DNA from: Thermoleophilaceae bacterium
Lineage (GTDB): Bacteria; Actinomycetota; Thermoleophilia; Solirubrobacterales; JACPNS01
DNA: 10,924 bases
Direction of reading: 5' to 3'
Assembly: GCA_016463365.1 (NCBI GenBank)
Contig: JAEMRJ010000076.1
Location: 1-10,924 of the forward strand
Of the stretch, positions 1 through 10,924 are shown in pieces; positions within the stretch are counted from its first letter, which is position 1, and every line of letters begins with the position of its first letter. The translations under genes were made by a program, and so were the position numbers. The notes under the pieces were generated by a model. That model had not been told where the DNA came from. It was given only the letters and a program-made list of their open reading frames with translations, and made no database searches.

Positions 1-583
1 CGCAGGGCAGGAACCAGAAGGACAGCGCGTTCATGCGCGGGAAGGCCATGTCCGGCGCGCCGAGCATCAGCGGCAGGACGTAGTTGGCGATGCCGGCGAA
101 GACCGGAACCATGAAGAGGAAGATCATCAGGGCGGCGTGCGAGGAGAACAGGCCGTTGAAGGTCTGCGCGTCGACGAACTGCATGCCGGGCGCGAGCAGC
201 TCGGCGCGGAAGACGAGCGCCAGCATTCCGCCGACCATGAAGAAGAAGAACGTGGTGACGATGTACTGGATACCGATGACCTTGTGGTCGGTGTTGAAGT
301 GGAAGTAGTCCTGCCACTTGCGTGCACCGTGGTCGGCGTGGTCGTCAACCTTGGTCGGTTTGCCCGAGAGCCAGTAGAGCCAGTAGTCCATGCAGCCGAT
401 CCCGTAGAGGAATCCGATCGGCACGGTGATCAGCGAAATTGTGGTGATCGACTCCCAGCTGATCTCCTGGTCCCAGCCGAGGATCAGGCGGAGTCCGGTG
501 ACCAGAACAAAGGCTACGACCCAGCCGATCGCCATCGAGAAGGTTGCGCGGTACCAACCTGGGGAGCGGAGTGATGCGGCCAT
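1..583 (-). CDS. ctaD: Cytochrome c oxidase subunit I (aa3 type), N-terminal part
   Basis: Catalytic subunit of an A-type heme-copper oxidase, which reduces O2 to water in the cytoplasmic membrane and pumps protons. Only the first 194 codons are inside the window; the rest lies beyond base 1. The ATG at 583-581 is preceded by a weak AAAGG about 13 bases upstream and follows the subunit II stop by 24 bases, so the two are probably one transcript. The start of the canonical core is visible at residues 98-104 (TDHKVIG). Helix II has the low-spin heme a ligand H149 in LFSSHAALMIF, then ANYVLPL and the DMAFPR motif. Residues 1-97 form an N-terminal extension with two predicted membrane spans (about 17-36 and 47-72) and a short His/Asp-rich linker; the core normally begins near the N-terminus. 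CuB and heme a3 ligands cannot be checked because they lie outside the window. Confidence 0.93.
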   Translation of the reverse strand, partial: MAASLRSPGWYRATFSMAIGWVVAFVLVTGLRLILGWDQEISWESITTISLITVPIGFLYGIGCMDYWLYWLSGKPTKVDDHADHGARKWQDYFHFNTDHKVIGIQYIVTTFFFFMVGGMLALVFRAELLAPGMQFVDAQTFNGLFSSHAALMIFLFMVPVFAGIANYVLPLMLGAPDMAFPRMNALSFWFLPC

Positions 584-607: not shown

Positions 608-1402
608 CTACTTGCTTGACTCGGAGTTTTCAAAGGCTCCGGGCCAGGTCTGGGGTTCGGCGTTCGCGCCGTTTGGCTTGGGTGCTGTGTCTGACTTCTG
701 CGCCGCGACCCAGGACTTGAACTCAGTCGGGGTGACCACACGGAGCGTCGATCGCATCGTCGCGTGTCCCACTCCGCAGAGCTCGGTACAGACGATCGGG
801 TATGAGCCGAGCTTGTTGGGCTCGAAGCGGATGCGCGTGGTAAAGCCGTCGGCTACATCGCGCTTGACGCGGGCAGAAGGCACATAGAAGCTGTGGATGA
901 CGTCTGCAGATGTCATCTCGAAGTAGAGCGGGCGGTTGACGGGCACGACCAGGTCGCCGCCGGTCTTCACGTCGTATTCGGGATACTGGTAGTTCCAGGC
1001 GAACTGTTGACCGATCACCTTGATCGTCATCGAGTTGGGCTGCTTGGCCTCGACCTTGTCGAGCACCGCCCAGGCGTAGAGCCCCAGAGCCATCACGACG
1101 ATCGTCGGGATGATCGTCCAGACGATTTCGATCTTGGTGGAGCCGTGGAACGGAGCGCCGTCCTTTTCCTCGTCGTCATCGGGCTTGGCGCGGAACTCGA
1201 CCAGGCAGAAAGCCAGGATCGCGCAGATGATGATGAAGAAAGGGATCGAGGCGATCGTCAGGGCGCGGTAGACCGTGTCGATCGGCGCCATGTCGTCGGC
1301 GATCAGCGTGCCCATCCAGTCGTACTCGAGCGTGAACACGATCAGCACAGCAGTCGCCACCAGGGCGCCAACAATGCCGACAATGCGATGTGAGGCTTTC
1401 AT
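608..1402 (-). CDS. ctaC: Cytochrome c oxidase subunit II, canonical CuA protein
   Basis: Accepts electrons from cytochrome c through a dinuclear CuA centre and passes them to subunit I. The protein is 264 residues. It has a hydrophobic N-terminal segment (about 7-25), two membrane hairpin helices (about 46-69 and 91-113) and an extracytoplasmic cupredoxin domain. All CuA ligands are present: H170 in DVIHSFYVP, then C205, E207, C209, H213 and M216 in the loop CTELCGVGHATM. The electron-entry tryptophan region is QQFAWNYQYP (W135). There is no C-terminal cytochrome c domain; the tail after residue 232 is short and polar. The ATG at 1402-1400 has a strong AAGGAG ribosome site at 1412-1407, with a perfect hairpin just upstream. 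It lies 24 bases ahead of ctaD. It is the natural reference for the degenerate homologue at 5155-6081. Confidence 0.97.
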   Translation of the reverse strand: MKASHRIVGIVGALVATAVLIVFTLEYDWMGTLIADDMAPIDTVYRALTIASIPFFIIICAILAFCLVEFRAKPDDDEEKDGAPFHGSTKIEIVWTIIPTIVVMALGLYAWAVLDKVEAKQPNSMTIKVIGQQFAWNYQYPEYDVKTGGDLVVPVNRPLYFEMTSADVIHSFYVPSARVKRDVADGFTTRIRFEPNKLGSYPIVCTELCGVGHATMRSTLRVVTPTEFKSWVAAQKSDTAPKPNGANAEPQTWPGAFENSESSK

Positions 1403-1629: not shown

Positions 1630-2040
1630 GTGTTGGTGAGTGAGGGAATGTCCAGGGTCGTGCTGACCGTCGGACCGCAACAGTCGCTGCGAGATGTCGC
1701 CCGGCAGATGACCGATCGTCGCGTCGGTGCCGCGGTCGTGATCGACCCGGATGCACCGGGTCCGGCGATCGTCACAGAGCGGGACGTCCTGCGCGCGTAC
1801 GCCGAGGACCGCATCACCGGCGACGACCCGGTGTCAAAGCATGCGACAGAGCGCATCGTCTTCGCTTCACCGGACTGGTCGCTGGAGCAGGCGGCCGACG
1901 AAATGGTGCGCGGCAGCTTTCGCCATCTTGTCGTCATCGATGCGGGCAGCATCGTCGGGATCCTCTCGATGCGTGACATCGTGACTTCGTGGGCGCAGGA
2001 CGGCGCCACGAGTGAGGTACCGGTTCAGAGAACCGCTTAG
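1630..2040 (+). CDS. Two-CBS-domain protein
   Basis: A 136-residue soluble protein made almost wholly of a tandem pair of CBS domains (a Bateman module): CBS1 about residues 5-60 and CBS2 about 72-126. Each ends in the typical pattern seen here as IVTERDVLRAY and ILSMRDIV. Such modules bind adenine nucleotides (AMP, ATP, SAM) and act as energy sensors, but the partner or ligand cannot be read from the sequence. I chose the GTG at 1630 because MLVSEGMS completes the first CBS strand and AAAGGGG lies 11 bases upstream; GTG 1636 and ATG 1648 are alternatives. It is divergent from the functional oxidase operon and ends 2 bases from the stop of the convergent oxidase-like operon. A link to respiration is suggested only by position. 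Confidence 0.9.
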   Translation: MLVSEGMSRVVLTVGPQQSLRDVARQMTDRRVGAAVVIDPDAPGPAIVTERDVLRAYAEDRITGDDPVSKHATERIVFASPDWSLEQAADEMVRGSFRHLVVIDAGSIVGILSMRDIVTSWAQDGATSEVPVQRTA

Positions 2041-2054
2041 CGCTAGCTGAGCGG
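2021..2054. terminator. Overlapping hairpins at convergent gene ends
   Basis: Two inverted repeats share three bases. CGGTTC-AGA-GAACCG spans 2021-2035. CCGCTTAGC-GCTA-GCTGAGCGG spans 2033-2054 (nine pairs, one G-T). The second covers both stop codons of the convergent genes. Neither strand has a U tract afterwards, so this is not a classical intrinsic terminator. It could still be a bidirectional, U-less terminator or an RNA end-stabiliser. Confidence 0.4.
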
Positions 2055-2288
2055 GAGTTCGTCGGACTGTTCGCGTGAGTCGCCGATCCAGGCGAGGGTC
2101 ACCGCGATGACCGCGACAAGGCCGATGAACATCAGTGGCCGGAAGGCGAACAGGCCGATGATCGAGATCAGAATCGACACCGCAAGCACGATCGGCTTGA
2201 TCGAGGGCGTGGTGAGCCAGATCGACTCGACCTCGGTGGCTGCCGATGTGCCGGTCGTCACTTCATCGATCAGTTCTTCGTGGCTCAT
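2043..2288 (-). CDS. Small two-span membrane protein, oxidase subunit IV-like
   Basis: An 81-residue protein with an acidic polar N-terminus (1-20), the segment ESIWLTTPSIKP (21-32), two closely spaced membrane helices (about 32-49 and 51-68) and an acidic tail (70-81). The pattern of a Leu/Pro/Ser strip leading into two helices and ending in a Trp-Ile-Gly turn resembles small subunit-IV-type proteins and the C-terminal two-helix extension of some bacterial oxidase subunit I proteins. That resemblance is from memory and is moderate; there is no catalytic residue to confirm it. The ATG at 2288 lies 5 bases after the stop of the preceding 36-residue ORF and has no strong ribosome site, so translation may be coupled. 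It is the last gene of the coxB-like/coxA-like/ctaB operon and may belong to that complex. Confidence 0.72.
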   Translation of the reverse strand: MSHEELIDEVTTGTSAATEVESIWLTTPSIKPIVLAVSILISIIGLFAFRPLMFIGLVAVIAVTLAWIGDSREQSDELPLS

Positions 2289-2425: not shown

Positions 2426-3358
2426 TCAGACCGAGGTGTCCACAACCATGGCGACAAACAGCAGCGCGAGGTAGGTCAGCGAATAGAGATAAGTCTTCAG
2501 CACCACCGGCCGCGCGTCGTCGCGCGTGAGTTGAACCGCGCGGTAGATGAACAATCCGCCGAGCAGCAACGCCGTAACGCCGTAGATCGCTCCGAAAGCG
2601 CCCGTCGCGACCGGGATCAGCGTCGTCAGCAGCAGCAGAATCGAGTACACGAGAATGTGGGTCGTCGTGGACTTCACGCCGCGCACGACCGGCAGCATCG
2701 GGACTGCGCTGGCGGCGTAGTCGTCCTTGATCAGCACTGAGAGCGCCCAGAAGTGGGGCGGGGTCCACATGAAGACGATTGCGAACAGCAGCCACGCCGT
2801 GAGGCTCAGGGACCCTGTGACAGCCGCCCAGCCGACGAGCGGGGGAACGGCCCCGGCCGCGCCTCCGATGACGATGTTCTGTGGCGTGCGGCGCTTGAGC
2901 CAGAGCGTGTAGACAAAGACGTAGCCCAGCAGGCCCGAGGTTGCGAGCACCGCCGCCAGCGTGTTGACGGCGAGCACCAGCACCACGACTGAAGCGACGC
3001 CGAGCAGGATTCCGTAGGTCAGCGCTGCAGCCGGTGACACTCGGCCCGCCGGGATCGGGCGCGTTGCCGTGCGCTCCATCTGCAGGTCGATGTCGCGGTC
3101 GATGAAGTGATTGATCGCGCCCGCGCTGCCGGTCGAGAGCGCGCCGCCCAGGCAGGTGAAGAAGATCAGTTCAAGCGAGGGGCTGCCGGCGACGAGCATC
3201 GTTGTCACGGTCGTCCAGAGCAGCAGGGACTGGACTCGGGGCTTGGTCAGCTCGAGGTAGTCGGCGGCAACCTGGCGCACGCGTGCGCCAGCGCTCGGCT
3301 CGGCTGCCGGAACCGCCTGCACGGACGGGATTGGTCGGGTGTGCGTTGCTGCTTCCAC
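2426..3358 (-). CDS. ctaB: Protoheme IX farnesyltransferase (heme O synthase)
   Basis: Integral membrane UbiA-family prenyltransferase that adds a farnesyl group to heme b to make heme O, the precursor of heme A for aa3 oxidases. The protein is 310 residues with about nine membrane spans. The first Asp-rich motif is N83-x3-D87-x3-D91 in NHFIDRDID. Others are ERTATRPIPAG (95-105), RRTPQNIVIGGAAGAVPPLVGW (156-177, key residues R156, N161, G177) and the second Asp motif KDDYAASAVPMLPV (211-224). The start is GTG 3358-3356: a TAG stop lies 14 codons upstream in frame and no other start intervenes, although no clear ribosome site is seen. The first 33 residues are a Pro/Ala-rich extension. It is in the oxidase-like operon, 75 bases after the coxA-like gene, but its product would serve the functional oxidase as well. 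Confidence 0.95.
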   Translation of the reverse strand: MEAATHTRPIPSVQAVPAAEPSAGARVRQVAADYLELTKPRVQSLLLWTTVTTMLVAGSPSLELIFFTCLGGALSTGSAGAINHFIDRDIDLQMERTATRPIPAGRVSPAAALTYGILLGVASVVVLVLAVNTLAAVLATSGLLGYVFVYTLWLKRRTPQNIVIGGAAGAVPPLVGWAAVTGSLSLTAWLLFAIVFMWTPPHFWALSVLIKDDYAASAVPMLPVVRGVKSTTTHILVYSILLLLTTLIPVATGAFGAIYGVTALLLGGLFIYRAVQLTRDDARPVVLKTYLYSLTYLALLFVAMVVDTSV

Positions 3359-3433: not shown

Positions 3434-5158
3434 CTAGTGCTTTGACTCGCGCAGCGACGGCCGGCCGGCCGAAGGTGACTGAGCGACCGATCCGACGAGT
3501 GCGCCGGTGTCGGCAGCGATCTGCTCGCGCAGGTCGGCGAGCGGAGTCTCGCTGGCCACTGCGGGGATCGCGTCAAAGTTGTTGACCGGCGGCGGCGAGG
3601 GCACGAACCACTCGAGGGTGCCGGCGCGCCAAGGGTCGTTTCCGGCGTGCGCGCCAGAGGAGTTGGACTGCATCAGGTTGACGAGCACACCGATCAGACC
3701 GAAGCCACCGATCACAAGCGCGATCAGGGAAATGATGTTTCGCAGCTCGTAGCTGCTGCTTGTGTAGGTGGAGAGTTCGCGGGCGAAGCCGTCTACACCG
3801 AGCGAGAACATGGCGAGAAACTGAATCCCGGTTCCGAAGGCGAGCATGCCCAGTGCTGCGCGAGCCTTGCCGGCGTCGATGCTCCGGCCGGTCATCTTCG
3901 GGAACCAGTACAGCAGGGCGGCAAACCCGCCGAAAGCCGCGGTGGCCCAGACCTGATTCATCCAGGCGGCGTAGCCGATCTGACTGCCGTAGATCCACTG
4001 CGAGAGCGCCGGGAGCGACATCGCAACATGGAACACGATCGCGAGCGTGAAGAACGCAGCAAAGACGACCGCGAAGGCCGACGGCGCGGTCGACTGGTAG
4101 TTCCCGCCGCGCACGGTGGAGAGCCAGGTCTGAAGGATGACGCCGGCCGGGATGATCAGGGCGAGCCCGATGACCATGAAGATGAGGTTCAGGTACGGCT
4201 TGACGGGAGCGCCGAAGAACACGACGCCGAAGCTGAGCACGCCAAGTACAGCGAAGGCGCGGATGGCCTTCTTCAGCTGCGGGAGATTGCTGATTGAGCG
4301 ACCCGAAGCTGCTGCGAGGATTTCGCTTACTGCGCCGACCGCGACCACGGTGATCAGGTAGGGGGCCGAGTGCGACCACCACTGGAAGAGCGTCTTCCAG
4401 AGCATCGGGCTCCCGCCGTCGACGGGGTTGAAGATTCCGAAGGACGTCCACTGGCGCTCAAGCAGGGCCATGAAGCAGGCTGCGACGAGCACCGGCGCGG
4501 TCGCGAGTATCCCATAGGCGAACACTGCCGATGAATACGCGAAAACCGGCGTACGTTCGGCACTCATGCCGTCTGCCCGCAGCGTCTTGAAGGTGACGGC
4601 AAGGTCGATCGCGATGAATGTCAGGCCGCCACCGGCCATGATCGCTGCGGTGAGCCAGAGGTCGGCTCCTGAGCCCGGTGAGTAGAAGTTCTCGAAGAGC
4701 GGGGCGGAGGTCTGGACCGTGCCCTGCCAAGTATTGGTGAAGGTGCTGAAGTAGAGCAGTCCGCCGCCAAGCACGATCATCCAGGTGCCGAGGGCCGAAA
4801 GCCGCGGAAATGCACTGCTGCGCGCGCCGATTTGGAGCGGCAGTACGTAGGTGGCGATCCCGGCGAACAGGGGGAGCGCGAAGAAGTAGAGGTAGCCCGT
4901 GTCAGAAAGCGTGTGCAGGCTGTAGAAGCGCTCAGGACTGAGGAAAGTGTTGCTGCTGACCGCAAGCTGGATCACGGTGAGCAGCTCCGTGAAACCGGCG
5001 AGAACGACGTTGATCAAGGAGAAACCGATCAGCGTCAGGCCGATCACCTTGTGGTCAGCGCTGCGAGCGCGGTCCATCCAGACGGCGCGCTTGCTGTCGA
5101 CCGGCTCGCGAATTACGACTTCGGAGACCTTCTCAGGCTGTTCGTAGGCGGTGCTCAC
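3434..5158 (-). CDS. Subunit I-like protein lacking nearly all heme and CuB ligands
   Basis: A 574-residue, 12-span homologue of cytochrome c oxidase subunit I. Fold motifs are intact: ADHKVIG (34-40), YVLPLQIGA (104-112), PGSGADLW (161-168), a Phe-Asn-Pro-x-Asp-Gly-Gly loop (243-249), YWFPKMTGR (417-425), TLEWFVPSPPPVNNF (514-528). Ungapped comparison with the canonical family shows the catalytic residues are gone. The helix II heme a His is S85. The helix VII CuB His pair is G316-A317. The helix X a3 and a ligands are A398 and M400. The K-channel Lys is I341, the Glu after the first CuB His is A265, and the Mg-site His-Asp is Y390-G391. Only H263 (CuB), Y267 and R460 remain. The GTG at 5158 overlaps the previous stop as GTGA, with AGAAGGA at 5170-5164. 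It is open and full length, so a maintained non-catalytic paralogue is likelier than a pseudogene. Its role is unknown. Confidence 0.92.
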   Translation of the reverse strand: MSTAYEQPEKVSEVVIREPVDSKRAVWMDRARSADHKVIGLTLIGFSLINVVLAGFTELLTVIQLAVSSNTFLSPERFYSLHTLSDTGYLYFFALPLFAGIATYVLPLQIGARSSAFPRLSALGTWMIVLGGGLLYFSTFTNTWQGTVQTSAPLFENFYSPGSGADLWLTAAIMAGGGLTFIAIDLAVTFKTLRADGMSAERTPVFAYSSAVFAYGILATAPVLVAACFMALLERQWTSFGIFNPVDGGSPMLWKTLFQWWSHSAPYLITVVAVGAVSEILAAASGRSISNLPQLKKAIRAFAVLGVLSFGVVFFGAPVKPYLNLIFMVIGLALIIPAGVILQTWLSTVRGGNYQSTAPSAFAVVFAAFFTLAIVFHVAMSLPALSQWIYGSQIGYAAWMNQVWATAAFGGFAALLYWFPKMTGRSIDAGKARAALGMLAFGTGIQFLAMFSLGVDGFARELSTYTSSSYELRNIISLIALVIGGFGLIGVLVNLMQSNSSGAHAGNDPWRAGTLEWFVPSPPPVNNFDAIPAVASETPLADLREQIAADTGALVGSVAQSPSAGRPSLRESKH

Positions 5159-6081
5159 TCTGTTCCTTCTTGGCCGGCCTTGACGGGCTTCTCGCCGGTC
5201 ACGAGAGCGGACTCTTCGCCGGAGGCGTTCTCGGCGCCGAGGGCGGTCATCGCCTCGGTGATCTCAATCTGCTTGCCGGCGAGCCAGCGCACGAAAAGCC
5301 GTGGGTCCAGGACTGAAACATTGGTGATCTGGTTGGCGTAGTTGGTGCCGTTGACCACGGTGCCCGAACCTGTGTAGAGCCCGGACTTGTCGGCACGGAT
5401 CCAAGCTTTGTTGTCGTAGCCGGGCATCGCGGTTATCGAACCACCCAGCTGAGGTACCCACCAGGCCGCCTCTGCGTCGGAAGATGTGAAGTCGAGCATC
5501 ACGGTGACGCCGGCCGGCAGGACCAGGTCGTTGTATGAGTATGTCGGCCACTTCGCACCCTTGAGCCCGGTGTATTCGTAGCGCCAGAGATACTGCTGGG
5601 CATTGACGCGGATGCTGTAGGCCGGTCCCGCGGGGGGCTTGACAACGTGAGCGACCTTCAGGCCGGGCTGGCTGAAGGTGGTCACCTTGAAGTTTCCGGT
5701 CTCCGGGAGCGACTTCTGGGCTGACGTGGTCTTTGCGAAGGCGAAGCTGCCGATCACGACAAAAACGATGAAAAGCACGCTGCCTGCGACGATGGCGCTC
5801 TTGCCGCTCGATTCTGCTGCAGCCGGCGCGTCGGCGTCGACTTCAGCGCGGCCCGCTCCGAGCAGGGCGAGCGTGTAGCCGAGGACGGCGACGAAGCCGA
5901 GGACGAAGACGATGAGAAACAGCCCGACGACGATCTCTGCGATCGGGGTGTTCGGTGAGTCCGGCCACAGGGCAGCTGCCGAGGCGGTCTGCGGAAGCAC
6001 GAACAGGGCGGCAGCAGCAGCAGCGACAAAAAGCGAGCTGCGACGGGCCGAGGAGCGATTTGTGGAGGTCTGGATCTGCAA
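5155..6081 (-). CDS. Subunit II-like protein lacking every CuA ligand
   Basis: A 308-residue homologue of oxidase subunit II. It has an N-terminal signal-like hydrophobic segment (about 15-36), two membrane helices (about 47-73 and 95-116) and a cupredoxin-like domain with the family landmarks QQYLWRYEY (162-170), TSSDAEAAWWVPQLGG (199-214) and MPGYDNKAWIRADKSGLY (219-236). Aligned without gaps to the intact copy at 608-1402, each metal ligand is replaced: H170 is A205, C205 is G240, E207 is V242, C209 is N244, H213 is Y248, M216 is Q251. It therefore cannot form CuA. The acidic tail (271-308) has no cytochrome c motif. The start is TTG 6081; TACAAT on the minus strand at 6096-6091 is close enough to suggest a leaderless message, and no ribosome site is seen. 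It overlaps the coxA-like gene by four bases, so the pair is translationally coupled and probably forms one complex. Confidence 0.92.
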   Translation of the reverse strand: MQIQTSTNRSSARRSSLFVAAAAAALFVLPQTASAAALWPDSPNTPIAEIVVGLFLIVFVLGFVAVLGYTLALLGAGRAEVDADAPAAAESSGKSAIVAGSVLFIVFVVIGSFAFAKTTSAQKSLPETGNFKVTTFSQPGLKVAHVVKPPAGPAYSIRVNAQQYLWRYEYTGLKGAKWPTYSYNDLVLPAGVTVMLDFTSSDAEAAWWVPQLGGSITAMPGYDNKAWIRADKSGLYTGSGTVVNGTNYANQITNVSVLDPRLFVRWLAGKQIEITEAMTALGAENASGEESALVTGEKPVKAGQEGTE

Positions 6082-7395: not shown

Positions 7396-8339
7396 GCGAC
7401 AACCAGTTCGAAATCGTAATAGTCGGAGCCGGACCTGCGGGGCTTTCAGCCGCGCTCTACGCCGGGCGCTCGATGGTCAAGACGCTCGTGCTCGAGCGGG
7501 GCGCGACCGGTGGCCAGCTGTGGAACACAGCCGAAGTCGACAATTTCCCCGGAATCCCTGACACGACCGGGCCCGATCTGGCGCACCGGTTCGAAGAGCA
7601 CGCCAAGAAGTTCGGCGCCGAATTCGAGTACGGGAACGTCACGAATATCGCCCGGGACGGCGAGGGTTTCGTGCTCACGACCGACGATGATCAGACCTAT
7701 CGGGCCGACGCGGTGATCGTCACTGTCGGCGGTGAGGCCCGGAAGCTCGGGGTTCCCGGCGAGCAGGAGCTCTCGGGAATGGGCGTCTCCTACTGCGCGG
7801 TTTGCGACGGCGCGTTTTTCAAAGACAAGCCGATTGCGGTGGTCGGCGGCGGTGACTCGGCCCTGGAAGAGGGCGAGTACCTCACGCGCTTCGGATCGAA
7901 GGTCTATCTGGTCCACCGCCGCGACGCGTTTCGCGCATCGCCGACGCTCGTCGAGAATTTCGATTCGAGCGACAAGACCGAAAAGGTGCTCAACTCGGTT
8001 GTTGAGGAGATCGTCGGCAACGACAAAGTGACCGGACTGCGCGTGAAGAACACTGAAACAGGCGCAGTCAGCGAGCTTCCGGTGGAAGCGGTTTTCCCGT
8101 TTGTCGGGTTCACCCCGCACTCAGCGATTTTCGATGAGGGCCTGGTTGAGACCGATGAGAGCGGCCACATCGTCACCGATCAGAAAATGGAGACAAAGAC
8201 GCCGGGCCTGTTCGCGGCCGGCGACGTTCGATCGCAGTTCACGCGGCAGATCTCAAACGCCGTCGGCGATGCGACGATCGCTGCGCTCGCGGCTGCGGCG
8301 CACGTCGCCGAGGTCAGGCGGGCGGCTACGCCCGCCTAA
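7392..8339 (+). CDS. trxB: Thioredoxin reductase
   Basis: Low-molecular-weight flavoprotein that uses NADPH to reduce thioredoxin in the cytoplasm. The protein is 315 residues, the usual length. The FAD-binding Rossmann motif is GAGPAG (12-17) and GGQLWNT (40-46) follows. The redox-active disulfide is C135-A-V-C138 followed by DG; the family more often has C-A-T-C. The NADPH-binding motif is GGGDSALEEGEYL (152-164), with HRR at 175-177 for the 2'-phosphate. The second FAD motif, TPGLFAAGDVRSQ, is near the C-terminus. The ATG at 7392 has GGAG at 7380-7383 and overlaps the preceding stop. No thioredoxin gene is in the window. The stop TAA (8337-8339) overlaps the stop of the convergent gene, inside a strong hairpin. 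Confidence 0.97.
   Translation: MSDNQFEIVIVGAGPAGLSAALYAGRSMVKTLVLERGATGGQLWNTAEVDNFPGIPDTTGPDLAHRFEEHAKKFGAEFEYGNVTNIARDGEGFVLTTDDDQTYRADAVIVTVGGEARKLGVPGEQELSGMGVSYCAVCDGAFFKDKPIAVVGGGDSALEEGEYLTRFGSKVYLVHRRDAFRASPTLVENFDSSDKTEKVLNSVVEEIVGNDKVTGLRVKNTETGAVSELPVEAVFPFVGFTPHSAIFDEGLVETDESGHIVTDQKMETKTPGLFAAGDVRSQFTRQISNAVGDATIAALAAAAHVAEVRRAATPA
8316..8337. terminator. Nine-base-pair hairpin over the trxB stop
   Basis: AGGCGGGCG-GCTA-CGCCCGCCT is a perfect, very GC-rich stem with a four-base loop. It includes the first base of the trxB stop codon and two bases of the opposing stop. There is no T run on either exit side (four A bases follow on the plus strand), so it would be a U-less bidirectional terminator or a stabilising 3' structure. 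The loop sequence GCTA is the same as in the hairpin at 2033-2054. Confidence 0.45.
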
Positions 8340-9076
8340 AAGCCGGGGTAGGGACCGAACGGCGCGGCCGGCGCGTATTGCGGGTATTGCGGGTAGCTGT
8401 ACTGCTGCGGCTGAGGCATGAACTGCACCGGCTGCGAATACTGGTGGGGCATCGCCGGGTACGGCGGCTGCGGGGCCCAGGGCTGCTGCGGCATGAACTG
8501 TGGTTGTTGCAGCTGCTGTGGCGGCTGGGCCATCAGCGTCACGAACGCCACGTACTGCTGCATCGGCATCGGCGGCGGCATGAAGCCCTGCATCTGCGGC
8601 TGGACGGCGAACGGTGGCGCCGAGTAGAACGGGAAGGTCGTGGGTTGAACGCCGTAGGCAGAGGGGCCGGCCTGAATCGGCTGGGGGCTGAGCGACTGAC
8701 CGGGAATTATCGGGGTGACCTGCAGCGCGGCCTGGAGCGAGGCGTTGGTCGGAAGCGCGATCAGAGGAGTGACCGGGCGACGTCGCCGGACCGGGGCCAC
8801 CGGGATCTGCGCGCTGGTCGGAAGCGGCTGCTGTTCTCCGGCGCGTCGGGAGATCGGGTCGGGGTGGCGCACCGCTTCACCCTGCATCGCCGGCGGAACG
8901 AGCGAAAGCAGCGGCGTGTCGCCGATCGGCGTGACCGGCGCAAAGCCGGCTGCCGGCGTTGCCGGGCGCGGCGATGCGGATCCGGCGGGGTCGTTGGGGA
9001 GCGGTTGCATAAGACTTCTGTGGTGATTCTGACCGACGACGGTCGCGAGTGCGCCGTCTTGAATGGTTTCGTCCAA
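8336..9076 (-). CDS. Pro/Gln-rich low-complexity protein
   Basis: A 246-residue protein of no recognised family. The N-terminal half is Pro/Ala-rich with a basic patch RRRR at about 97-100. The C-terminal half is dominated by Pro, Gln, Tyr, Met and Phe with short repeats such as YPQYPQY and ends in FGPYPGF. It is predicted disordered, with no clear signal peptide or membrane span. A GC-rich third codon position in this frame supports it over the Arg-rich opposite frame. The start is unclear: TTG 9076 gives the full length, ATG 9010 gives 224 residues, and neither has a good ribosome site. A 9-base tandem repeat at 8375-8392 encodes the YPQ repeats. It is convergent with trxB, with overlapping stops, and divergent from aconitase. 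Its function is unknown. Confidence 0.6.
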
Positions 9077-9155
9077 TCTGGCAGCGCGGTTTAGTCGGCG
9101 GGAGCAGAAATGCGCGCAAGGCGGCGTTCAGGCTGCGTGTAGGATCTGGCCGAAC
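9077..9155. other. Divergent gap between Pro/Gln-rich gene and aconitase
   Basis: Seventy-nine bases that must hold the promoter of aconitase and perhaps that of the opposite gene. TAGGAT at 9140-9145 fits the TANNNT -10 form, 10 bases before the aconitase GTG. Its AGGA also lies 11 bases from the GTG and could act as a ribosome site instead. No -35 or clear operator palindrome was found. Confidence 0.3.
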
Positions 9156-10924
9156 GTGAGCAACGACCCCCTCCAGACTCTCGACAGCTTCAGCACCCCT
9201 GCGGGTGAGGGGTCGTTCTATTCATTGCCGAAGCTCGAGGCCGCAGGTTTCGGGCCGATCTCGCGACTTCCGGTCAGCATCCGCATCGTGCTCGAAGCCG
9301 TCCTGCGCAACTGCGACGGCAAGCGCATCACCGAGGAACACGTCCGGCAGCTCGCCAACTGGAGCGCCAACGGTGAGCGCACCGACGAGATCCCATTTGT
9401 CGTCGCGCGAATCGTGCTGCAGGACTTCACCGGCGTTCCGTTACTCGTCGACCTTGCTGCGATGCGCTCGGCAGTCGATCGTATGGGCAAGGATCCGAAG
9501 GTCATCGAGCCGCTGGTTCCCGTGGACCTCGTCATCGACCACTCGGTGCAGGTTGACTTCTCCTCGACCGGTGCGTCATTTGAGCGCAACATGGCGATGG
9601 AGTTCAAGCGCAACCGCGAGCGTTACGAGTTTCTCAAGTGGGGCATGCAGGCCTTCGAGGCCTTCAAGGTCGTGCCCAGCGGTATCGGCATCGTCCACCA
9701 GGTCAATCTTGAGTACCTCGCCCAGTGCGTGCTCGAGCGTGACGGCATCCACTTCCCGGACACGCTCGTCGGAACCGACTCCCACACCACGATGATCAAC
9801 GGCATCGGCGTGGTTGGCTGGGGCGTCGGCGGTATCGAGGCCGAGGCCGGAATGCTCGGCCAGCCCGTCTACTTCCTCACGCCCGACGTCGTCGGTGTCG
9901 AGCTGACCGGCGCGCTTCACGAGGGTGTCACCGCAACCGACATGGTGCTGCGCGTCACCGAAATGTTGCGCGCCCAGGGCGTCGTCGGAAAGTTCGTCGA
10001 GTTCTACGGCGAAGGCGCAGAAACGCTCTCGCTCCCGGACCGCGCCACGATCAGCAACATGGCGCCCGAGTACGGCGCGACGATGGGATTCTTCCCCTAC
10101 GACGAACGCTCAACCGAGTACATGCGCCTGACCGGCCGCACGGAAGAGCAGATCGAGACCGTCGAGAACTACTTCAAGGCCCAGGGACTGTTCGGCATCC
10201 CGAAGGCCGGCGAGATCGATTACTCCGTGGATCTCTCACTCGATCTCGACACGATCGAGCCGAGCGTTTCAGGACCCAAGCGCCCGCAGGACCGCATCGA
10301 CCTGAAAAACCTGAAGAGCCGCTTTGTCGAGCTCTTCCAGGCGCCGACGACTGAGTCCGGCTACGGCAAGGCCGCCGAAGAACTGAACAAAGTCTTCCCC
10401 AGTGACGTCGGTCTGCCTGATGACGAGGCCCACGGCACGAACGGCGGTGGCACAGAAGACGACGACATCGACGAATCTGACTCGTCGGCCGCGCTTGATT
10501 CTCAGGAGGAGATGGTTGCCAACCGCCCGACAGCGGACCTGCTGCAGCTTGAAGACCTGACCGACCAGGAGCGCGTCGACGTCGACCTGCACCACGGCGA
10601 TGTGCTGATCGCGGCAATCACATCCTGCACGAACACTTCAAATCCCTCGGTCATGCTCGCCGCCGGGCTTGTCGCCAAGAAAGCCGTCGAGAAGGGCCTG
10701 ACCGTCGGTCCGGCCGTGAAGACTTCGTTGGCACCGGGATCGCGCGTGGTCAGCGACTACCTCGATCAGACCGGGCTGCAGACCTACCTCGACGAGCTCG
10801 GCTTCAACCTCGTGGGCTACGGCTGCACGACCTGCATCGGCAACTCCGGTCCGCTCGACGCCGGCCTCGAGGCGACGATCGTCGACAACGACGTGATCGC
10901 AGCCAGCGTGCTCAGCGGAAACCG
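9156..10924 (+). CDS. acnA: Aconitate hydratase A, N-terminal two thirds
   Basis: TCA-cycle enzyme that isomerises citrate to isocitrate through a [4Fe-4S] cluster. 589 codons are present; the C-terminal swivel domain is beyond the right edge. Visible motifs are [21 protein letters not shown] (206-226, key residues D208, H210, G226), SCTNTSNPS with cluster Cys C491, and [14 protein letters not shown] with C557 and C560. These three cysteines fall about 55 positions later than in E. coli AcnA or IRP1. This is explained by an acidic, low-complexity insertion at about residues 420-470, rich in Asp, Glu, Ser and Gly. Mycobacterial and related aconitases are also long, so this fits an actinobacterium. 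The GTG 9156 start gives [12 protein letters not shown], a normal N-terminus for the family. IRP-like RNA binding is known for some members but cannot be judged here. Confidence 0.96.

Follow-up and report, generated by a model that had tools for sequence, protein, structure and literature searches.

A conserved heme-copper oxidase subunit I/II pair with lost metal ligands in Thermoleophilia: a probable pseudoenzyme

The 10,924-nucleotide stretch of Thermoleophilaceae contig JAEMRJ010000076.1 analysed here (hereafter, the window) encodes homologues of subunits I and II of heme-copper oxidases, denoted COX1' and COX2', whose metal-binding residues are largely replaced. Comparison with their relatives indicates that this pair is very probably redox-dead and, at the same time, kept by selection. 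Judged from sequence, the two proteins are heme-copper oxidase subunits I and II by descent that lack what defines the enzyme, and they can be described as a putative pseudoenzyme derived from a whole oxidase core. The first-pass annotation of the window had proposed that COX1' derives from a heme-copper oxidase and is selected but non-catalytic. That proposal is supported by losses common to its relatives, by low ratios of nonsynonymous to synonymous substitution rates (dN/dS, 0.13-0.23) and by the absence of relocated ligands, but it was too narrow: the COX2 partner is equally stripped, and two further ligand-losing groups are found at the same locus. The window pair belongs to clade A, the other two groups being clade B and group X. 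The features of the pair, all on the minus strand, are the following:

3434-5158, minus strand: COX1', subunit I homologue of 574 residues with a GTG start (open reading frame, PF00115)
5155-6081, minus strand: COX2', subunit II homologue without CuA ligands (PF00116, ligand alignment)
5329-5364, minus strand: former CuA loop of COX2' (residues numbered from the translation)
5164-5171, minus strand: ribosome-site-like sequence AAGAAGGA, 5 nt 5' of the COX1' GTG
3437-3493, minus strand: C-terminal tail of COX1', near-invariant in 68 clade A proteins (alignment, model confidence)

Metal ligands and channel residues of COX1'

COX1' is matched by PF00115 (E 1.2e-58, 199.5 bits), which identifies it as a heme-copper oxidase subunit I by descent. 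Regarding the six metal-binding histidines, sequence-based multiple alignments place S85 at the helix II position, H263 at that of helix VI, V312 and V313 at the helix VII pair, and A398 and M400 at the helix X pair, H263 being the one histidine of six retained in the window protein. Five of the six had already been read as gone, with S85, A398 and M400 at the same places; the helix VII pair, previously given as G316-A317, was four residues out of register, with no histidine either way, and the alignment with solved oxidases is not strictly gapless as had been claimed. The alignments also agree with the earlier reading in placing A265 at the glutamate position, I341 at the K-channel lysine and G391 at the Mg-region aspartate, and in retaining H263, the tyrosine Y267 and the propionate arginine R460. 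The second propionate arginine is E461, and the D-channel aspartate and two asparagines are lost. No relocated ligands are seen in the alignments, where no other histidine stands at any ligand position. COX1' also falls below all NCBIfam cut-offs, among them those of TIGR02891 (CtaD_CoxA; 289.1 against 670.75 bits) and NF050116 (cyt_aa3_Actin; 249.7 against 880), as well as those of the quinol oxidases CyoB/QoxB (242.9 against 1020.35 and 235.4 against 1015.5).

Protein searches were examined over the best 120 of more matches per query (for COX2', 120 of 166). The clade A set holds 68 proteins (the 64 of the 69 entries P0001-P0069 that exceed 540 residues, plus four loci), 17 of them in the tree. 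Clade B proteins are L062-L088 and P0070-P0120; the set used holds 76, namely the 27 loci, all in the tree, and 49 of P0070-P0120 placed by likeness outside the tree, P0112 (functional) and P0083 (839 residues, ligandless) being left out. Members of group X are L014, L110, P0121, P0124, P0126, P0127, P0133 and P0135-P0138. The functional set, F, comprises 126 proteins (16 loci and 110 of P0122-P0240 picked for their ligands), P0139 (functional, 624 residues) being left out.

Homologues carrying the same losses are abundant, every one of the 68 clade A proteins retaining at most two of the six histidines (1 protein with none, 60 with one and 7 with two; P0008 and L004, both among the 68, have an identical core). 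In clade B, none is retained in 23 proteins and one in 53, while the ten group X proteins compared retain either two (5) or three (5). All six are present in 126/126 F proteins, partly by construction as this set was selected for having ligands, and in 18/18 proteins of the second oxidase, R, taken from 13 A, B and X genomes; every one of these genomes encodes one or more canonical COX1 scoring 491-522 bits. The window protein has 120 listed relatives, of which P0112 is the sole one with six ligands and five are fragments that do not span all sites; of the 120 listed for L014, a group X protein, the set is complete in 111 and incomplete in 9. The losses are not due to chance, since full sets are found in 111/120 L014 relatives and in 67/67 functional loci, against 0-2 histidines in 68/68 clade A proteins. 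The D-channel aspartate and the K-channel lysine are absent from every A, B and X protein compared, being replaced in 68/68 clade A proteins by S/T/G/A and I/L/F, respectively. R460 is kept in all 68, with Glu (67) or Asp (1) at the second arginine.

The groups differ in what they have at the vacated sites. Group X keeps the heme a histidine pair (10/10), has Gln in place of the heme a3 histidine and has lost CuB ligands. Clade B shows Gln-Asn at helix VII in 76/76 proteins, and its helix X histidine accompanies a helix II tyrosine in 53 of 55 cases and never occurs without it; Tyr-His might form either a heme pair or a hydrogen-bond pair. The widely kept histidines in the body of clade A proteins are H36, H82 and H263, with H377 in 40/68; H82 is new, lies three residues before the lost heme a histidine and is kept in 66/68, the residue opposite it being Leu in 45/68 and His in 8/68.

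The subunit II homologue and the CuA site

In the former CuA loop of COX2', the C, E, C, H and M of working COX2 are replaced by G240, V242, N244, Y248 and Q251, respectively. Once two COX2 stretches under 200 residues are excluded, both cysteines are absent in 20/20 COX2 encoded beside a ligandless COX1, the window included, and the CuA site is missing accordingly, while the CuA set is found in 16/16 beside a functional COX1 (one with E to V) and in 10/10 COX2 of the second oxidase. The same division appears among the 120 of 166 COX2' relatives listed, both cysteines being absent in 68/68 of P0241-P0308 and the set present in 52/52 of P0309-P0360; 57 of the 60 nearest listed have no cysteine beyond residue 60. 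At the positions of the two Cys, the His and the Met, deep clade A and most clade B proteins share Ser (S or A at the first), Ser, Tyr and Met, respectively, which agrees with a single origin, and the window subclade has Gly, Asn and Tyr at the first three. CuA is also absent from group X in the one context read (L110).

The start codon of COX2' is uncertain, a 281-residue form being also listed. Its domain organization of two helices plus a cupredoxin-like domain is recognised by PF00116 (32.6 bits, cut-off 22), and its model (predicted local distance difference test, 79.3; predicted template modelling score, 0.70) has COX2 and quinol oxidase subunit II chains as top matches. COX2' is thus predicted to keep a COX2-like fold.

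Selection on the pair

Values of dN/dS were obtained by the Nei-Gojobori (NG86) and Li-Wu-Luo (LWL85) methods, those quoted being NG86, and they are best judged against functional controls because third positions have 71-98% GC. For COX1' they were 0.127-0.229 in clade A (5 pairs) and 0.144-0.382 in clade B (10 pairs), to be compared with 0.049-0.332 for functional F (6) and 0.075-0.146 for the second oxidase R (6). COX2' gave 0.210 between the window and L001, and four neighbour genes 0.058-0.118. Ligandless proteins are therefore somewhat above ctaB or the second COX1 and far from 1, and the check suggested in the first-pass annotation gave, over five clade A pairs, values far below that limit.

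The COX1' reading frame is free of internal stops, in agreement with the earlier report of neither stop nor frameshift across 574 codons; the overlap with the upstream gene and the ribosome site described there correspond to the GTGA shared by the COX2' and COX1' frames and to an AAGGA core 5 nt 5' of the GTG. The frame is open in 4/4 clade A and 24/27 clade B genomes, L079 and L088 being cut by contig ends. In the clade B locus L069 (G193:C23) the first 68 residues are missing in frame mid-contig, as a broken copy or an assembly error. Loss of catalytic residues is thus combined with purifying selection, as in pseudoenzymes. A recent pseudogene was rejected on the basis of low dN/dS and losses common to relatives, and an artefact of a single assembly because the pair recurs in other genomes and in metagenomes at one locus.

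Predicted fold, former heme rooms and C-terminal tail

The fold of COX1' is predicted to be intact, the match being tight and the actinobacterial aa3 oxidase (6adq, 7q21) being among the best ones. Of 195 columns in which at least 90% of functional proteins share one residue, 10 carry residues more than 25 cubic Å larger in both A and B. Two of these 10 are on helix IX, where G374 is replaced by Leu/Ile/Val in clade A and by Leu in 76/76 clade B proteins, and G377 by His/Gln/Asn in A and by Glu in 74/76 B. We take the helix IX face with 374 and 377 to pack on heme a3 in working oxidases, and the larger residues at 374, 377 and 179 would fill part of the former heme room.

Clade A has also gained E58, H82 and D86 (66/68 each), D185 (68/68) and E461 (67/68), where functional F proteins have A, F/L/M, G, N and R, respectively. 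R460 presumably held a heme propionate in working oxidases, and the clade A carboxylates (E58, D86 or E461) may replace the heme propionates at this kept arginine. In the clade A tail, 18 of the 19 places have one residue in at least 59 of the 68 proteins, yet model confidence is low for the COX1' tail (under 50 for residues 563-574); a near-fixed stretch modelled with low confidence points to a binding motif, which the tail likely is.

Origin and distribution of the ligandless groups

In a 70-row COX1 tree, clade A (17 sequences) and clade B (27) are each a clade and jointly form one clade, with a Shimodaira-Hasegawa-like approximate likelihood ratio test (SH-aLRT) value of 100, nested among functional F proteins, its nearest relatives being working oxidases. 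The tree comes from a short search with SH-aLRT support only and has long branches to A and B, so that deep joins are taken with caution; A and B were joined again (100) in 49 rows with the ligand columns removed. In group X, nine members form one clade and the tenth, P0133, stands beside functional P0130 (SH-aLRT 99), while in the 70-row tree L014 pairs with functional L015 (100). Constraining A, B and X to a single clade was 22.8 log units worse (approximately unbiased test, p-AU 0.107), and all ten X to a single clade 24.3 log units worse (p-AU 0.094), neither being rejected. The ctaB adjoining X is sister to that of functional genome G146 (100), and X COX2 resembles the same functional relative. 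As both X genes side with a functional relative, X was treated as separate, and at least two independent ligand losses are likely; X looks like a separate, partial loss retaining the heme a histidines. On A and B as one clade the ctaB tree is neutral (p-AU 0.483, neither shown nor rejected), part of B standing apart in the best tree.

The distribution was evaluated across 299 genomes sampled from the class to which G001 belongs (Thermoleophilia). Carriers of the ctaB-linked oxidase, assumed here to be of A1 type, were called at E 1e-100 to P0078 or by clade A membership, and clade B at 46% or more identity to P0078, cuts by which distant carriers may be missed. This oxidase was found in 99/299 genomes (4 A, 27 B, 1 X and 67 others), 32 of these 99, about one third by the cuts used, having a ligandless version, and the full ligand set was present in 67/67 functional-type carriers (17 + 50 read). 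The second oxidase, which we take to be A2-like, accompanies 31/32 ligandless versions (4/4 A, 26/27 B, 1/1 X) against 44/67 functional ones (Fisher p 0.0004, in a test that ignores kinship and counts that oxidase type only, presence meaning E under 1e-200). Some sources name ligandless proteins among P0002-P0076 as cytochrome c oxidase subunit 1 or cbb3-type subunit I.

Gene neighbourhood

The locus has the order COX2'-COX1'-ctaB, and is followed in the window by these features:

2426-3358, minus strand: ctaB, heme O synthase (NF003349, 371.6 bits)
2043-2288, minus strand: small 81-residue protein with no Pfam or NCBIfam family (family scan, gene contexts)
1630-2040, plus strand: two-CBS-domain protein (domain scan, gene contexts)
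608-1402, minus strand: COX2 of a working oxidase, with an intact CuA set, H C E C H M (family scan, alignment)
2-583, minus strand: start of the working-oxidase COX1, which runs off the window; heme a His motif FSSHAAL present

The complete gene for this truncated working COX1 was found in L001. Gene contexts were read on stretches of 5-20 kb (4 A, 16 B, 1 X and 12 functional). In 4/4 A, 16/16 B and 1/1 X contexts ctaB adjoins the pair or follows ctaA, and it adjoins COX1 in 11/12 functional ones; ctaA separates COX1 from ctaB in L094 (A; 8425-9504), L106 (B) and L120 (F) according to PF02628, and in L109 (B) according to BLAST. The second oxidase is on the same stretch in 4/4 A, 9/16 B, 1/1 X and 7/12 functional contexts; where it is unseen, in several contexts the contig ends or the gene sits on another contig. 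Both oxidase gene sets are co-directional in A, X and 7 functional contexts, and BLAST detects one COX3 where both share a stretch. Contig JAEMSX010000019.1, from a Thermoleophilaceae metagenome-assembled genome, has the same gene order, with a complete working COX2-COX1-COX3 and, farther along, a cytochrome c gene.

Between ctaB and the working oxidase, the CBS-domain protein is in place in most contexts and the 81-residue protein in many, not all. Elsewhere in the window, positions 8336-9076 hold a Gln/Pro-rich open reading frame of 246 residues without Pfam family, adjoining a thioredoxin reductase also in clade A L001, L092 and L093.

Possible roles of the pair

Since the ligands for redox entry and exit have been lost along with both proton paths, yet genes, order and frames are kept, a non-redox task fits best. 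Our preferred reading, with a probability of roughly 0.4, is that the pair forms a metal-free complex that docks, as a partner, onto the adjacent working oxidase. COX1' and COX2' would still bind each other, would carry neither heme nor copper, and would stabilise, assemble or regulate the oxidase encoded alongside, perhaps via the C-terminal tail of COX1'. It is favoured because the same neighbourhood is found in A and often in B, and because of the near-constant co-occurrence with that oxidase. A bolder version, which we consider doubtful, is that a whole oxidase core became, on at least two occasions, a redox-dead structural complex serving as dummy protomer in a hetero-oligomeric oxidase, its heme rooms rebuilt with protein and, in clade A, carboxylates replacing propionates.

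Several points weigh against a docking partner. As to the genomic evidence, (i) the 31/32 co-occurrence ignores kinship, A and B having one origin, (ii) the same co-occurrence would be expected if catalysis could be lost only where another oxidase exists, and (iii) the linkage to ctaB is inherited from functional relatives. Clade B fits less well, as the second oxidase is not on the stretch in 7/16 contexts, is oppositely oriented to the pair in 9/9 contexts showing both, and is not seen, in its A2-like form, in genome G297; besides, outside clade A the tail is not conserved. On the structural side, the alignment used for prediction included functional proteins, possibly favouring the canonical fold, and 18 of the 195 fixed columns are smaller in both A and B, at odds with tight filling of the heme rooms.

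Ranked close behind, although with lower odds, is an assembly chaperone, a permanent apo-oxidase mimic that would hold the heme A machinery CtaB/CtaA or copper chaperones and pass cofactors to working COX1/COX2 while remaining outside the finished enzyme. Such a role would suit the ctaB next to the pair in A, B and X and the ctaA in between in L094, L106 and L109, but the ctaB linkage is ancestral, being present in functional lineages too, and A and B retain no heme-holding residue in common. An unlikely alternative is another heme protein, a sensor or electron relay holding one heme by the bis-His of X, the Tyr-His of B or H82 of A. The two heme a histidines of X (10/10), the Tyr-His association in B (53/55, with no His lacking Tyr) and the retention of H82 (66/68) agree with it; Leu (45/68) rather than His (8) opposite H82, the 23/76 clade B proteins without any ligand histidine, the missing CuA electron entry and the larger residues at helix IX glycines 374 and 377 do not. 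Slightly less likely still is a new ion or proton pathway, in which clade A would use E58, H82, D86, D185, H377 and E461 as a cofactor-free channel or transporter. Conservation of E58, H82 and D86 (each 66/68), D185 (68) and E461 (67) at sites with other residues in functional F would be explained in this way; however, neither of the former D and K pathways is intact, positions 58 and 82 in clade B are mostly Leu/Phe and Leu, respectively, which leaves no common pathway, and the gained polar residues may equally be structural.

Slow decay, by which an oxidase no longer needed is gradually being lost, has a lower probability again. Losses in two or three lineages, nearly always alongside another oxidase, and the 68 residues lacking in L069 (unless by assembly error) would accord with it, but dN/dS of 0.13-0.38, intact frames and retention of both subunits do not, and the helix VII Gln-Asn of clade B (76/76) and the clade A tail are too conserved; decay is largely refuted for A and B as groups, though not for the singleton P0133. 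Finally, a still active oxidase with misaligned ligands located elsewhere is scarcely credible: identity to solved oxidases is indeed low (about 29%), but H36, H82 and H263, with H377 in 40/68, could not supply six ligands, the model matches the fold closely, and the lack of cysteines past residue 60 in 57/60 nearest listed COX2' argues likewise.

Implications and comparison with known systems

Among the matches listed, no account of a ligandless subunit I was found in open-licence literature, a weak negative. Respiratory predictions for uncultured actinobacteria may be inflated by ligandless proteins named as oxidases. If the pair is indeed a docking partner, it would constitute a natural experiment on which complex IV surfaces matter apart from catalysis. 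Group X, with its heme a histidines kept, offers an intermediate stage in how a multi-metal enzyme is lost.

Subunit II of quinol oxidases lacks CuA, while these enzymes retain the six subunit I histidines. COX2' thus resembles subunit II of the bo3 and aa3-600 enzymes (CyoA, QoxA), but COX1' differs from their subunit I, having lost its histidines and scoring far below the CyoB/QoxB cut-offs. The trypanosome AdoMetDC prozyme (PMC5201418), an example of inactive paralogues by which an active partner is regulated, is likewise conserved and without catalytic activity while the cell has a functioning relative; the present case differs in that a putative membrane complex of two subunits has lost the ligands of four metal centres. 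The best sequence match of COX1', at about 29% identity, is the aa3 oxidase of the actinobacterial III2-IV2 supercomplex (6adq, 7q21), from which it differs by its missing ligands and by a score well short of the NF050116 cut-off. The closest known system is the ctaB-linked A-type cytochrome c oxidase (CtaD/CtaC), which shares locus, gene order and predicted fold with the pair, and inside which A and B are nested. With respect to it, the pair is without the ligands of heme a, heme a3, CuB and CuA and without the D- and K-channel residues, all of which functional members keep (67/67; CuA, 16/16).
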